Of a stretch of DNA of 16,765 nucleotides, positions 3,738 to 8,603 are shown one piece after another. This DNA comes from Nitrospirota bacterium (GTDB lineage Bacteria; JACPQY01). How positions within the stretch are numbered: position 1 is the first letter of the stretch; each line of letters opens with the position of its first letter. The position numbers were made by a program, and so were the translations under genes. The notes under the pieces are model-generated. The model saw only the letters and a program-made list of their open reading frames with translations. It did no database searches and was not told where the DNA came from. Location: positions 1-16,765 of the forward strand of contig JACPQY010000079.1 of NCBI GenBank assembly GCA_016190245.1, read 5' to 3'.

Positions 3738-4772
3738 CTACCCCGCAGACACGATGGCGTCCGGGGTGCGCCCGTTTCCAACGAGTTTGCGAATGTGCGT
3801 AGCTAGGATGTGGCCCACAAACAGCGGCACTGCGGTCAGGTGTGCCACCCGCATCGCGTTGAGCCAGCGAGTGGGGCGGAGGTAGAAGCGCAGGTAGGCG
3901 CCCAGCAGGATCCGTTCGAGCACGGATCGTGGCAGGTGTTCCAACTCGAGGGAGGCCCCCGCCTGCTTGCCGAACTTCGTCCAGTCCCTCGTCAACAGCC
4001 GCAGCCCGCCTTCTCCGCGTTCGGCCATCCGCATCACTTCCGTTCCGGGGAAGGGTACGAGAATGGAGAAACCCGCGCTGTCCGCGCCTAACTCCAGCGC
4101 GAACCGGATCGTGTCGCTGATCGTCTCGCGCGTTTCGTCGGGGTGGCCGATGATGAAGTTACTCTGCGTGAAGATCCCCAGTTCCCGGCACCAGCGGATG
4201 GCCTGAACGGCCTCTTCCTTCCGGGACTTTTTCCTGATGGCATCGAGCACGGCCTGATTGCCGGCCTCCACGCCGAAGGAGATGGCCTCGCAGCCGGCCT
4301 CCTTGAGCAGCGCCAGGAGATCCCGCGTGACGGCGTCCACCCGCGTCTCACAAACCCATCGCAGTCGGCGGGGCACGCCTCGGGAGAGCATCGCCTCGCA
4401 GAGGGCGGTGGTGCGCTTCCGATTGATGGTGAAGGTCTCGTCTGTGAACACAATCTGGCGGATGGGGTAGCGTTGCAGGTCGTGTTCGATCTCGTCCATC
4501 ACGGCATCGATCGAACGATAGCGGTACTGCGTGCCGCCCGGGTTCTGGCAGAAAATGCACTGATAGGGACACCCCCGGGCCGAGGAAAGCAGCAGGGCGG
4601 GATTTCGGCGGATGCGGTACATACCGTCGTAGGCCTCTACAGGAAAGGCGTCGAACGCCGGTAGCGGCAGGCGATCGAGGTCGCGACTGCGCGGACGCTC
4701 GGGTGTGAAGGCGAAGGTGCCGTTGGACCGGACGATCACGCCGGGGGGGGGGCCGTGCCGCGGATCGGCCAC
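3738..4772 (-). CDS. B12-type radical SAM enzyme, catalytic part (3' fragment of a frameshifted gene)
   Basis: This frame carries the radical SAM domain separated from its own N-terminal B12-binding domain (4736-5185) by a frame change at a C10 run. The GTG at 4772 is only the first possible codon in this frame and need not be a real start. The 4Fe-4S/SAM motif CPYQCIFC has Cys68, Cys72 and Cys75 of this fragment. The barrel continues with IVFTDETFTINRKR, SFGVEAGNQAVLDAIRKKSR and NFIIGHPDETRETI, typical of the BchE/MiaB-like fold. A hydrophobic helix lies near the C-terminus (HLTAVPLFVGHILA). Restoring the frame by one extra C gives a 482-aa protein, close to its 471- and 508-aa neighbours. 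Substrate unknown; members of this family methylate or rearrange unactivated carbons with cobalamin. Confidence 0.85.
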   Translation of the reverse strand: MADPRHGPPPGVIVRSNGTFAFTPERPRSRDLDRLPLPAFDAFPVEAYDGMYRIRRNPALLLSSARGCPYQCIFCQNPGGTQYRYRSIDAVMDEIEHDLQRYPIRQIVFTDETFTINRKRTTALCEAMLSRGVPRRLRWVCETRVDAVTRDLLALLKEAGCEAISFGVEAGNQAVLDAIRKKSRKEEAVQAIRWCRELGIFTQSNFIIGHPDETRETISDTIRFALELGADSAGFSILVPFPGTEVMRMAERGEGGLRLLTRDWTKFGKQAGASLELEHLPRSVLERILLGAYLRFYLRPTRWLNAMRVAHLTAVPLFVGHILATHIRKLVGNGRTPDAIVSAG

Positions 4773-5185
4773 GCCTCGATCAGCTCGACGAGCGCGTCCT
4801 CGCCCTCGCCGACAATGGCCGCATCGAACGAGGGAAACTGGCGGAGTGTCTCCTCCGCGATGGGTGTGACGTGATACCCCCCGAGGACGACGGGTTTTCC
4901 GGGAAGGGCGTCATGGAGGGCCCCGGCGGTCAACGCCGCCTCCACGATCTGGTAGGTATTGGCCGTGATCGCGAGGAAGTCCGGCGCGAACGCGCGCGCC
5001 CTCGCGACGACATCCGGAATCTGCTCGCCGGTGGCCGCGGCGTCGATGCCCAGAATCTCGTGGCCCGCCTGGCGCGCGGCCGCCGCGACGTAGGCCAGAC
5101 CGATGTGGGGAAGTCTCTCCTTGAACGCCACGTCCCGGCCCCAGCGCGTGAGGCGCGGGGGATGAATGAATACGACACGCGCCAT
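4736..5185 (-). CDS. B12-binding domain, 5' fragment of the same frameshifted radical SAM gene
   Basis: 149 aa from ATG 5185, which overlaps the previous gene's TGA by one base (TGATG), with GGGGAG five bases upstream. The fold is a Rossmann-like cobalamin-binding domain as in BchE-type enzymes: VVFIHPPRL at the N-terminus, HIGLAYVAAAARQAGHEILGIDA, then VVLGGYHVTPIAEETL and DAAIVGEGEDALVELIEAW. The His of the classical DxHxxG motif is absent, as is usual in this radical SAM class. The frame ends in TAPPPA-stop directly after the C10 run, whereas the +1-corrected reading continues into GVIVRSNGTFAF, the normal linker to the radical SAM domain. It is either a broken or switchable gene or an assembly error. 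Confidence 0.8.
   Translation of the reverse strand: MARVVFIHPPRLTRWGRDVAFKERLPHIGLAYVAAAARQAGHEILGIDAAATGEQIPDVVARARAFAPDFLAITANTYQIVEAALTAGALHDALPGKPVVLGGYHVTPIAEETLRQFPSFDAAIVGEGEDALVELIEAWPIRGTAPPPA
4743..4752. repeat. G10/C10 homopolymer at the frame break
   Basis: Ten consecutive G on the + strand (ten C in the coding strand) sit exactly where the B12-binding frame and the radical SAM frame part. Runs of 11 or 8 would restore one continuous ORF. It is the longest mononucleotide run noticed in the window; runs of 7-8 in other genes (7643-7649, 13283-13290, 14060-14067) leave their frames intact. Confidence 0.95.
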
Positions 5186-6600
5186 CAGTTCTCCCCCAGA
5201 AGCCCCAACGCGCCGTATACCATGTGTCGCAGGGGGATCGTGCGAATGCGCAGGATCTGCCGGGCGATCATGCGGCTTCGCAGGTAGAACCTGCGGTGTG
5301 CGCGCCGCTGCGCCTCGATGACCTGCTCCGCCGTCAGTCCCGGCGGCAGGTAGACGGGGGGATTGGCGGGGGTGGGGTAGCTCGTGTAGCGGACCCAGTC
5401 TCGGGGGAGACCGCCGTTGTCGCGGCTGAAGGTCGTGTAGATGTCTGTGCCGGGGTAGGGGACGAACACATTAAACTTGGCGAAGTCCACATCGAGTTCG
5501 ACGGCGAATCGAATAGTCCGCTCGATCGAGGCCGGGGTCTCGCCGGGACACCCGATCATGAAGAAGCCGACAATCTCGATGCCGGCGGCCTTCGTCCATT
5601 GAGCCGCCCGTCTGGCCTTCTCGATGGATGTCCCCTTGTCGATGGCATCGAGGCTTTCCTCCGTGCCCACCTCGAATCCGTACATGAGTCGCCGGCAGCC
5701 GGCCTCGCGTAGGGCCTCGAGAAGTTCGGGGTTGACGAGGTCCACGCGCGTCTCGGTCGTCCACACGATCTTCCGATGGAGGCCGCGGTCCACGAGAATC
5801 TTGCAGAAGTCCAGCCCCTCCTTCCGGCTGAACGGGAAGATGGGATCGATGAAGGAGATCTGACGGTAGCCGTACCGCTCATAGAGGTGCTCCATCTCAT
5901 CCGCCATGTTGGCGAGGCTGCGATGGCGGCGATCGTGTCCCATGACGAGCAGGCTGCAGTAGTTGCAATGGAAAGGGCAGCCTCGGGAGCCGAGGATGAG
6001 CGTTCCCGGCCGCTCGATCTCCGCGAAGGTGAAAAGGCGGTAGCGGTCGCGAGGGAAGAGATGCCACGCGGGGAAGGGGAAGGCGTCCAGGTCGGCCTCG
6101 GAGGACCGCGCCGGGGTCCGCCGGATGCTCTCGCCCTCGCGGTAGGAGATCCCGGCCACCTCGCCCGGATCACCGCCACGCTCCAGCGTGGACGCGAGAT
6201 GGGCAAACGTGCGCTCGCCCTCGCCGTGAACCACGATGTCCGCGTGCCCACTGTTCAGGACATCACGGTAGAAGTAGTCCGCGTGAAGGTTGCCCAGGAC
6301 GCGGCGGGCCTTGGGGACCGCCGTCCTGACGGCCTCCATGAGATCGAACACGTGGGGGGCGGATTGTGTGAGGCAGCCAAGCCCCACGAGGCCCGGATCG
6401 AACGCGCGCACGTGCTCGACCACTTCCGGCACGGTCAGTCGCTCCCCCGCCTCCTCCACAATCCTCACCTCGTGGCCTTCCTGTTCCAGTACCGCCGCGA
6501 GGTAGCCGAGGTTGATCGGCGGCATCACGCAGTAGACGCGGCTGAATGCCCCCACGGCCTTCAGCGCGTCCATATCCGGATTGATGAGCGCGATCCTCAT
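5185..6600 (-). CDS. B12-binding-domain radical SAM enzyme (BchE-like class)
   Basis: 471 aa from ATG 6600, three bases after the stop of the upstream gene (TGA-TCC-ATG). Residues 1-140 form the B12-binding Rossmann domain: RIALINPDM, INLGYLAAVLEQEGHEVRIVEE, VLGNLHADYF and DIVVHGEGERTF. A short linker with FPFPAWHLFPRDRY leads to the radical SAM barrel with CPFHCNYC (Cys208, Cys212, Cys215), then ISFIDPIFPFSRKEGLDFC, YGFEVGTEESLDAIDKGTS and GFFMIGCPGETPASIERTIRF. The C-terminus has basic and hydrophobic helices (RMIARQILRIRTIPLRHMVYGALGLLG), suggesting membrane contact. Full-length for the family. It would cleave SAM to the 5'-deoxyadenosyl radical and, with cobalamin, alkylate or rearrange an unknown substrate. 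Middle gene of a three-gene operon. Confidence 0.9.
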   Translation of the reverse strand: MRIALINPDMDALKAVGAFSRVYCVMPPINLGYLAAVLEQEGHEVRIVEEAGERLTVPEVVEHVRAFDPGLVGLGCLTQSAPHVFDLMEAVRTAVPKARRVLGNLHADYFYRDVLNSGHADIVVHGEGERTFAHLASTLERGGDPGEVAGISYREGESIRRTPARSSEADLDAFPFPAWHLFPRDRYRLFTFAEIERPGTLILGSRGCPFHCNYCSLLVMGHDRRHRSLANMADEMEHLYERYGYRQISFIDPIFPFSRKEGLDFCKILVDRGLHRKIVWTTETRVDLVNPELLEALREAGCRRLMYGFEVGTEESLDAIDKGTSIEKARRAAQWTKAAGIEIVGFFMIGCPGETPASIERTIRFAVELDVDFAKFNVFVPYPGTDIYTTFSRDNGGLPRDWVRYTSYPTPANPPVYLPPGLTAEQVIEAQRRAHRRFYLRSRMIARQILRIRTIPLRHMVYGALGLLGEN

Positions 6601-6603
6601 GGA

Positions 6604-8130
6604 TCACCCATCATACCATTCGGGCTTGAGCAGGCCAGTGTACACCTCGCGGTTCAGCGGATTGAGGCGCCGGGAGACGGCGTCCATGGCAATCCGCAGC
6701 GTGACGAGCAGCCACCACACGTACATGTTCCGTTTGTAGGCATCGCGGGAGAGGAGACCCGCGGCGAGCCAGCGCAGCGTGACGAACTTCCGGTTCATCT
6801 GGATGAGCACGTCTTCGATCTCGCGGCGCGAGAGATGCGTGCTGGACATGATCGGTGTCAGCCAGTCGTAGTAGGAGAAATCGTCGACCTCGATCCAGCC
6901 GCGAGCCTTGGCCTCCTGCCAGACTTCCGTTCCGGGAACGGGGGTGAGGGGATGGAAGCCCGGATAGTCAAGACCGAGTTGCCGGGCGTAGGCGAGTTGC
7001 TCGAGCATGGTCTCGCGAGTCTCGTCCCGCACACCCACGATGAAGGTGCCCTGGCGGAAAACGGCCGGATACCGCAGGCGGAGCATGTCGAAGCACTCGC
7101 GCGTCAGGTCGTCCCGGTAGAAGCCCTTCTTCATCTGCTGAAGGTCCACGTCCTGGTGGCGTTCGACGCCGATGCTGACGTGGTTCAGGCCCGCGGCCAC
7201 GAGGCGCTCCATGATCCCGAGCTTCTCGTCCCGCATCATGCAATCGGCGCGCATGAAAGCGAACCAGTGGGTGTCCACGTGGCGGCGGTCCATCTCGGCG
7301 GCGAAGCGCTCGCTCCAGTGGCAGTCGATGTTCCAGGCGTCGTCCACGAACACAAGGAACTTCTTGCCGTAGGCGCGACGGAGCAGCTCGATCTCATCCA
7401 CCACGCGGCCGACGCTCTTGGTCCGCCAGCGCGGGAACAGTTTCACCTCGCCGTTCACCACGCGGCGGTCGGCGTTCTGTACCCACCAGACGCAGAAGTT
7501 GCACCGGCTGACGCAGCCGCGGCTGTGCTGGATCGTCGTGGCGCCGGGGGCGAAGAGGTATCGGGAGCGGCCGTACGCACGCATGGGGAGGAGATCGAAG
7601 GCCGGCATGGGGTAGGCGTCGAGATCGTCTTCCAGAACCCGCGGGGGGGTGCGTGTGACGTGCCCGTCGGTGCGGAAGGCGAGGCCGGTCACACGATCGG
7701 GGCGGGGGTTGTTCCGCTCGATCTCGTCGAGCAACTCCACAAACGTCCGCTCCCCTTCGCCGATCACGATGTAGTCGATCGGATAGGCCATGAGGTTGGG
7801 CTCGACGAGATTGGTGAAATGGACGCCGCCGGCGACGGTGGTGATCGCCGGGTCGATCTGCTTGGCGAGCGAGAGGGCCTTGATCGCCTCGTGCGCGTAG
7901 AGACAGTGATTTTCCCCCACGCCCACGACATTCGGCCGCTTCGCCCGAATCAACTCCGCCAGTGCGCGCCACCCGATCTTGGATGCCATGCAATCGACCA
8001 GCTCCACCTCGTGACCCGCCCGGCGAACCATACCCCCAAGGCACGCCAGCCACTGCGGCATGAGGTGGTTGTCTCCCTCGCCGATGTACGGCCAGTAGTA
8101 GCGTGGCGGCTGGACGAGAAGGACTCTCAC
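6604..8130 (-). CDS. B12-binding-domain radical SAM enzyme, first gene of the operon
   Basis: 508 aa from GTG 8130. The frame stays open back to 8454, but the conserved family N-terminus VRVLLVQPPRYYWPYIG begins here, and GAGG lies six bases upstream, so 8130 is preferred. The B12-binding domain covers about residues 1-140 (GGMVRRAGHEVELVDC, TTVAGGVHFTNLVEPNL, DYIVIGEGERTF). The linker has YPMPAFDLLPMRAY. The cluster motif is CVSRCNFC (Cys206, Cys210, Cys213), followed by VWWVQNADRR, FVDDAWNIDC, SIGVERHQDVDLQQMKKG and TFIVGVRDETRET. The extended post-cluster segment (about 214-250) is longer than in the two siblings. A hydrophobic helix (NMYVWWLLVTLRIAM) lies near the end. Substrate unknown. 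A sigma-54-like element sits 63-79 bp upstream. Confidence 0.9.
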   Translation of the reverse strand: MRVLLVQPPRYYWPYIGEGDNHLMPQWLACLGGMVRRAGHEVELVDCMASKIGWRALAELIRAKRPNVVGVGENHCLYAHEAIKALSLAKQIDPAITTVAGGVHFTNLVEPNLMAYPIDYIVIGEGERTFVELLDEIERNNPRPDRVTGLAFRTDGHVTRTPPRVLEDDLDAYPMPAFDLLPMRAYGRSRYLFAPGATTIQHSRGCVSRCNFCVWWVQNADRRVVNGEVKLFPRWRTKSVGRVVDEIELLRRAYGKKFLVFVDDAWNIDCHWSERFAAEMDRRHVDTHWFAFMRADCMMRDEKLGIMERLVAAGLNHVSIGVERHQDVDLQQMKKGFYRDDLTRECFDMLRLRYPAVFRQGTFIVGVRDETRETMLEQLAYARQLGLDYPGFHPLTPVPGTEVWQEAKARGWIEVDDFSYYDWLTPIMSSTHLSRREIEDVLIQMNRKFVTLRWLAAGLLSRDAYKRNMYVWWLLVTLRIAMDAVSRRLNPLNREVYTGLLKPEWYDG

Positions 8131-8192: not shown

Positions 8193-8209
8193 AACAAGAA
8201 ATGTGCCAC
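8193..8209 (-). promoter_or_regulatory. sigma-54-like (-24/-12) promoter element facing the radical SAM operon
   Basis: Read on the - strand the site is TGGCAC-ATTTC-TTGTT, preceded by G. The -24 box is a perfect TGGCAC and the GG to -12 G spacing is the required 10 bp; the -12 box is TTGT instead of TTGC, which is a weakness. Transcription would begin near 8182, leaving about 50 nt before GTG 8130. The same 17 bp occur in mirror orientation at 8448-8464. A pair of binding sites for a shared regulator is the alternative reading. Confidence 0.45.
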
Positions 8210-8276
8210 CGCTCATGTCCACGAATGGAATATTGTAGACGGTGCAGGATGTTAGGCAAGTAGGAGCCCGCCGGTC

Positions 8277-8324
8277 CTCGAACCCATGAAATCTTTTCAG
8301 AGTGATTGAAAGGGTGGGTTCGAG
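8277..8324. repeat. 10-bp inverted repeat in the divergent control region
   Basis: CTCGAACCCA at 8277-8286 and TGGGTTCGAG at 8315-8324 are perfect reverse complements separated by 28 bp (half-site centres 38 bp apart). They lie between the two outward-facing promoter-like elements, where an enhancer-binding activator of sigma-54 would be expected. The right arm resembles a tRNA T-loop, but no tRNA fold forms around it. Confidence 0.5.
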
Positions 8325-8351
8325 TCCTTTCGAAATCCTGCAAGACTTGCG

Positions 8352-8376
8352 CGCTCGTGGAAGGTTTTGCCGAGCG
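8352..8376. repeat. 6-bp inverted repeat in the divergent control region
   Basis: CGCTCG (8352-8357) and CGAGCG (8371-8376) flank 13 bp. A further CTTTCG (8327-8332)/CGAAAG (8375-8380) pair overlaps it. These short dyads could be extra regulator sites in the 389-bp gene-free stretch 8131-8519, which shows no supported gene on either strand; they could also be chance at this length. Confidence 0.3.
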
Positions 8377-8447
8377 AAAGAATCCAGGAGACGAGCCGGG
8401 CGCAACACCTTGAAATGAACGCAAATATCTAGGCCGCGGTGGGGTTC

Positions 8448-8464
8448 GTGGCACATTTCTTGTT
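8448..8464 (+). promoter_or_regulatory. sigma-54-like (-24/-12) promoter element facing the small ORF
   Basis: GTGGCACATTTCTTGTT: a perfect -24 TGGCAC box, 10 bp from its GG to the -12 G, and TTGT in place of TTGC. Transcription would begin near 8474, about 46 nt before ATG 8520. It is identical to the element at 8193-8209 in mirror image and lies at nearly the same distance from its start codon. A sigma-70 alternative exists here: TTGACA at 8464-8469 with a poor -10 (TAGCCT, 17 bp on). Confidence 0.45.
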
Positions 8465-8519
8465 TGACACCAATGCGAGCGGATGTTAGCCTTCCGTAAC
8501 CAGAAAGGAGCAAGTGAGT

Positions 8520-8603
8520 ATGTTTGACGTTAGAGCGTGGTGGCCTGCCCCGCGGCGGAAGCCGCGCACACCGGCCAAGCCTGCCCAGGATTCGGGCAAG
8601 TAG
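8520..8603 (+). CDS. small ORF encoding a 27-aa basic, proline-rich peptide
   Basis: ATG 8520 to TAG 8601. AGGAG at 8506-8510 lies nine bases upstream, one of the better ribosome-binding sites in the window. The peptide begins MFDVRAWWPAPRRKPR and ends QDSGK; it has seven Lys/Arg against two Asp, five Pro and two adjacent Trp (TGG TGG). There is no signal peptide or Cys. Inside the ORF, CGCGGC-GGAA-GCCGCG (8551-8566) forms a strong hairpin with a GNRA-type loop. It may be a leader peptide whose translation controls the downstream acyltransferase, a small functional protein, or a precursor peptide for the divergent radical SAM enzymes. I do not recognise a family. The ribosome-binding site and the promoter-like element argue that it is translated. 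Confidence 0.5.
   Translation: MFDVRAWWPAPRRKPRTPAKPAQDSGK
8551..8566 (+). other. stable hairpin with GGAA tetraloop inside the small ORF
   Basis: A six-bp all-GC stem, CGCGGC (8551-8556) with GCCGCG (8561-8566), closes a GGAA loop, a GNRA-class tetraloop. It begins right after the tandem Trp codons, so ribosome stalling there would change its folding. GGCC at 8542-8545 could pair with GGCC at 8572-8575 around it. Confidence 0.45.

Follow-up and report, generated by a model that had tools for sequence, protein, structure and literature searches.

The intergenic region and its neighbouring genes

The window analysed here is a stretch of 16,765 bp from a Nitrospirota genome (G000), in which a leftward operon of B12-binding radical SAM genes and a rightward gene for a 27-residue peptide are separated by a gap of 389 bp, limited by a GTG start at 8130 (minus strand) and an ATG start at 8520 (plus strand). 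The phylum is represented in our collection by two genomes, this one and a relative, G001. The features discussed below are as follows.

3738-5185, minus strand: B12-binding radical SAM gene 3, in two overlapping frames (4736-5185 and 3738-4772)
5185-6600, minus strand: B12-binding radical SAM gene 2, 471 aa, assigned by profile matches; also second in G001
6604-8130, minus strand: B12-binding radical SAM gene 1, 508 aa, PF02310 and PF04055; first gene of the leftward operon
8193-8209, minus strand: second, exact copy of the 17-mer, facing the radical SAM operon
8277-8324, no strand: 10-bp perfect dyad CTCGAACCCA / TGGGTTCGAG, candidate activator (enhancer) site
8448-8464, plus strand: first copy of the 17-mer, GTGGCACATTTCTTGTT, facing the small peptide gene; TGGCAC-N5-TTGT, a sigma-54-like -24/-12 element
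8463-8491, plus strand: sigma-70-like TTGACA-17-TAGCCT, overlapping the end of the plus 17-mer, found by direct reading
8520-8603, plus strand: peptide gene MFDVRAWWPAPRRKPRTPAKPAQDSGK, 27 aa, with an AAAGGAG ribosome-binding site and a homologue in G001
L050 5811-5894 (G001), plus strand: peptide homologue MTDTRSWWPAPRRKPRGPAKPIQTPSK, 27 codons, directly upstream of radical SAM gene 1

The best-scoring family for radical SAM proteins 1 and 2 is BchE, at about 210 bits and thus far under the family cut-off of 481, and no orthologue of gene 1 was confirmed in the named genome collection. In G001, the orthologue of gene 1 is 76% identical and gene 2 follows it in the same order. The frame of gene 3 is split at a run of ten C (4736-4772), a frameshift that may be an artefact of sequencing or may mark a tract prone to slippage.

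The small open reading frame also has its counterpart in G001. The two peptides are 72% identical over 25 residues, and across codons 7-23 their genes differ by 2, 2 and 10 bases at codon positions 1, 2 and 3, while similarity between window and G001 is not detectable for the DNA of the region as a whole. The gene is divergent from the radical SAM operon in the window and runs in the same direction in G001. The mostly silent differences in the core, and the same radical SAM neighbour in both genomes, indicate that the small ORF is a genuine gene under selection and is linked to this operon. The peptide is rich in Trp, Pro and Arg, with the core WW-P-A-P-R-R-K-P-R. A DNA-pattern search for homologues elsewhere returned 19 matches, none a convincing small gene; no homologue was found outside the two phylum genomes, and none was seen beside the distant radical SAM homologues of other phyla. 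Within the two genomes, the further weak matches beyond the two orthologues look like chance. One of the other-phylum radical SAM loci, L044, has a sigma-54-like match scoring 21.4 at 644 bp upstream.

That the gap holds a perfect 17-bp inverted repeat, as a sequence-only reading of this DNA had reported, is borne out by both copies, which end 62 and 55 bp from the start codons. The match covers exactly 17 bases, and the sequences on either side of it are dissimilar. When the window was shuffled with dinucleotides preserved, 0 of 200 shuffles held two matches at three or fewer mismatches, and chance origin of the pair is excluded for random sequence. The search for further copies that the earlier reading had proposed found no third 17-mer, with up to two mismatches allowed, anywhere in the genome (3.29 Mb, 85% complete), in which the surrounding 551-bp region also occurs once. 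For background, 400 kb of this genome were sampled. They contain three further closely spaced perfect inverted repeats that reach the 17-bp minimum (arms of 18-26 bp, separated by 94-264 bp), each within DNA that looks like a mobile element, so the rarity of the repeat is by itself no evidence for promoters.

Several short elements with terminal repeats were seen in the course of this survey. L130 6352-6655 is an element of about 300 bp with 20-bp perfect terminal inverted repeats, whose reading frame resembles a GIY-YIG nuclease (MHYVYVLHSL...WAYIGYTSD). L134 12215-12371 and 19655-19800 are MITE-like, with terminal repeats of 18 and 26 bp, and each occurs in more than one copy in the sample. 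G001 has a comparable element in front of its peptide gene (L050 5592-5697), with ends of about 19 bp and internal hairpins.

Sigma-54-like elements in the two copies

Each 17-mer was scored with a weight matrix built from 42 intergenic sense sigma-54 sites identified by ChIP-seq in E. coli (PMC4591121). On this E. coli-derived matrix it reaches 16.7, against a median of 15.95 for held-out E. coli sites, and ranks 19 against the 42. Shuffled sequence gave no match scoring at least as high, and the 400 kb of this genome gave two. The matrix score thus supports each copy as a putative sigma-54 site of confirmed-site quality. Both copies carry the -24 element TGGCAC with its invariant GG, in agreement with TGGCA[CT], and the 10-base GG-to-G spacing claimed earlier is present in both. 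Predicted transcription starts, placed from the 17-mer positions by the +19-from-centre rule of PMC4591121, would fall at about 8475 (plus) and 8182 (minus), that is about 45 and 52 nt from the genes, distances within those tabulated for E. coli in the same work.

The -12 box reads TTGT instead of TTGC in both copies, with correct spacing. The sequence-only reading had called this T the weak point of the promoter interpretation; the deviation is present, but the same base is known at confirmed promoters. It occurs at 3 of the 42 E. coli sites, namely pspA, pspG and ygeW (CTGGCACACTTATTGTT), of which pspA and pspG, not ygeW, are marked as confirmed promoters (PMC4591121), and the pspG site of Yersinia is TTGGCACGTTTCTTGTAA (PMC7657599). 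One-base changes in the GC or GG are known among characterised promoters, and in three promoters, changes in the -12 box (GC to TT), the -24 box or the spacer lower activity by a factor of about 3 to 11 (PMC7910581). Within this genome, all matches to TGGCAC-N5-TTG[CT][AT] have TTGC, with the exception of the 17-mer pair and one intragenic site. The core alone proves little, because matches to TGGCAC-N5-TTG are hardly above those of a reversed-pattern control (24 versus 16 in G000, 27 versus 31 in G001), and it is the full matrix score that carries the argument.

The genome is equipped for this form of control. A lack of rpoN would, according to the sequence-only reading, have told against it; rpoN is present, full-length and intact, with the RpoN box SRRTVAKYRE. 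There are 29 places that match the sigma-54 activator domain PF00158, most of them strongly, and none of these matches marks an activator gene on the contig of the 17-mers. Canonical sigma-54-like sites occur at other loci; one of them, TGGCACTGCGCTTGCA, precedes a gene that starts MKKIEAIIKPFKLDEVKEALN and encodes, by sequence, a P-II protein. The promoter interpretation is accordingly strengthened by matrix score, rpoN and activators, but weakened by the absence of the sites from the relative G001.

Alternative readings of the repeat

In G001, neither of the two orthologous genes is preceded by a 17-mer or a sigma-54 site, the best score being 7.3. The G001 peptide gene is preceded by TTGACACC and TAGTCT, and its radical SAM gene by a sigma-70-like TTGACA-17-TAGTTT. 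Both TTGACACC and TAG[CT]CT are common to window and G001 upstream of the peptide gene, and, contrary to a sigma-54 interpretation, the shared TTGACA box sits on the plus copy of the 17-mer. The -10 of the window element at 8463-8491 is weak, and a consensus scanner gave no match there. Because this box recurs in G001, whose genes are without a sigma-54 site, on the peptide side the sigma-70 promoter may have come first, with sigma-54 control added in the lineage of the window; alternatively, the 17-mer may be an operator beside the sigma-70 promoter on that side. A fixed common regulon is disfavoured, since the sites are absent from G001 and the orthologous genes there carry TTGACA boxes.

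The last possibility can be extended to both sides, with the 17-mers serving as two operators at which one conventional transcription factor controls sigma-70 promoters. Relative to the starts suggested by TAGCCT and TACATT, they would lie at about -42 (plus) and -44 (minus), the position of a class II activator, and full identity over 17 bp suits a protein that reads all 17; the elements shared with G001 (TTGACACC and TAG[CT]CT) and the TTGACA-17-TAGTTT before its radical SAM gene suit the sigma-70 promoters. We nevertheless consider this arrangement unlikely: the sigma-54 matrix match is far above chance, the 17-mer is without a clear internal palindrome and is missing from G001, and the minus side has no -35 box, the consensus scanner having detected neither promoter. 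The mobile-element setting of the three other perfect repeats in the 400 kb raises the question of whether the 17-mers are instead the ends of a 272-bp MITE-like element in the gap, their sigma-54 appearance being incidental. This is disfavoured, since the noncoding elements of this sort are multi-copy in the sample, whereas the 17-mer pair and its 551-bp region are single-copy and a clean target duplication is not seen on reading the flanks (GGACGC versus TGACAC); a repeat end would also only rarely agree with the sigma-54 matrix this well by chance, and we hold such an origin to be quite improbable.

Still less probable, to the point of being barely credible, is an invertible segment in which the 17-mers flank a promoter that flips between the two arms. 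The perfect inverted repeats do enclose 238 bp of noncoding DNA with one promoter-like match (TTGCCT-16-TACAAT, 8259-8232, reading left), and the genome has seven tyrosine recombinase matches. None of the recombinases is on the contig, however, the promoter-like sequence of each arm already lies outside the segment, and a single internal match is little over the chance expectation of 0.3.

A candidate divergent promoter pair

We favour, with a probability of about 0.6 judged from the sequence, a reading in which the two 17-mers are back-to-back sigma-54 promoters, a candidate pair opened by one activator between them. RNA polymerase with RpoN would be bound at each -24/-12 element as a closed complex, and an NtrC-type activator bound between the promoters, possibly at the dyad at 8277-8324, would open both; the leftward output would be the B12/radical SAM operon and the rightward output the 27-aa peptide gene. 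Transcription from the two elements, their joint activation and the action of the dyad as an enhancer are parts of the model that we infer. The dyad is possibly the activator site by virtue of its distance, which suits both promoters, and CTCGAACCCA / TGGGTTCGAG occurs nowhere else in G000 or G001.

Identical, symmetrically placed copies had been taken to imply joint control of both arms. The identity is indeed beyond chance in shuffled sequence, but joint control follows from it less strongly than was claimed, since the spacer need not be identical for sigma-54 to bind. Nor is spacer identity alone extraordinary, as one other pair among the TGGCAC-N5-TTG matches of this genome also has a common spacer (GGGCC). 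The most plausible reading of the 17-base identity is that a promoter core was copied or homogenised, sigma-54 binding alone being insufficient to account for it: sigma-54 leaves spacer and edges unfixed, and therefore either such a core or an additional protein reading the same bases has to be assumed.

The pair is probably a further case of a known kind of promoter, here set beside a conserved peptide gene. PspF is the activator of the pspA and pspG phage-shock promoters. These promoters in E. coli and Yersinia (TTGGCACGCAAATTGTA, TTGGCATGATTCTTGTA, TTGGCACGTTTCTTGTAA) resemble the window pair in their TGGCA[CT]-N5-TTG core, in the T of the -12 box and in a similar distance to the gene, but they are single promoters, whereas the window has a divergent, identical pair upstream of unrelated genes. 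Two outward sigma-54 promoters also leave one intergenic region at hycA/hypA of E. coli (OS27/OS28, PMC4591121), where, in contrast to the identity over 17 bp found here, spacer and edges differ and the boxes are canonical TGC. Sigma-54 control of specialised metabolism is known for natural-product genes of Myxococcus xanthus (PMC7910581), whose genome is activator-rich like the present one; unlike the candidate pair of the window, the promoters there are proven by mutation and activator binding.

The promoter pair is in itself ordinary. If the proposal is true, one sigma-54 switch would govern the B12/radical SAM operon together with a peptide gene that is conserved and unannotated, and an experimenter would look for the two in one and the same condition. 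With its WW-P-A-P-R-R-K-P-R core and its place beside B12/radical SAM enzymes, the peptide prompts the thought that it is modified. One trait of RiPP precursors is present, namely a short conserved gene adjoining the gene of the same radical SAM enzyme in both genomes; the window proteins scanned included no protease or exporter and no domain that binds a RiPP leader. It is a tentative and rather doubtful suggestion that the Trp-Trp-Pro/Arg-rich 27-aa peptide is substrate or partner of the tandem B12-dependent radical SAM enzymes, the whole forming one module under sigma-54 control.

Some minor features of the gap may be recorded. RNA folding is not in notable excess (z -0.48 on the plus and -1.77 on the minus strand), and neither a tRNA nor a known structured RNA was found in the gap despite the T-arm-like GGTTCGAGTCC at about 8317-8327, which stands without any tRNA. 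TTCGA-N6-TCGAA accompanies the dyad in the window at 8277-8334.
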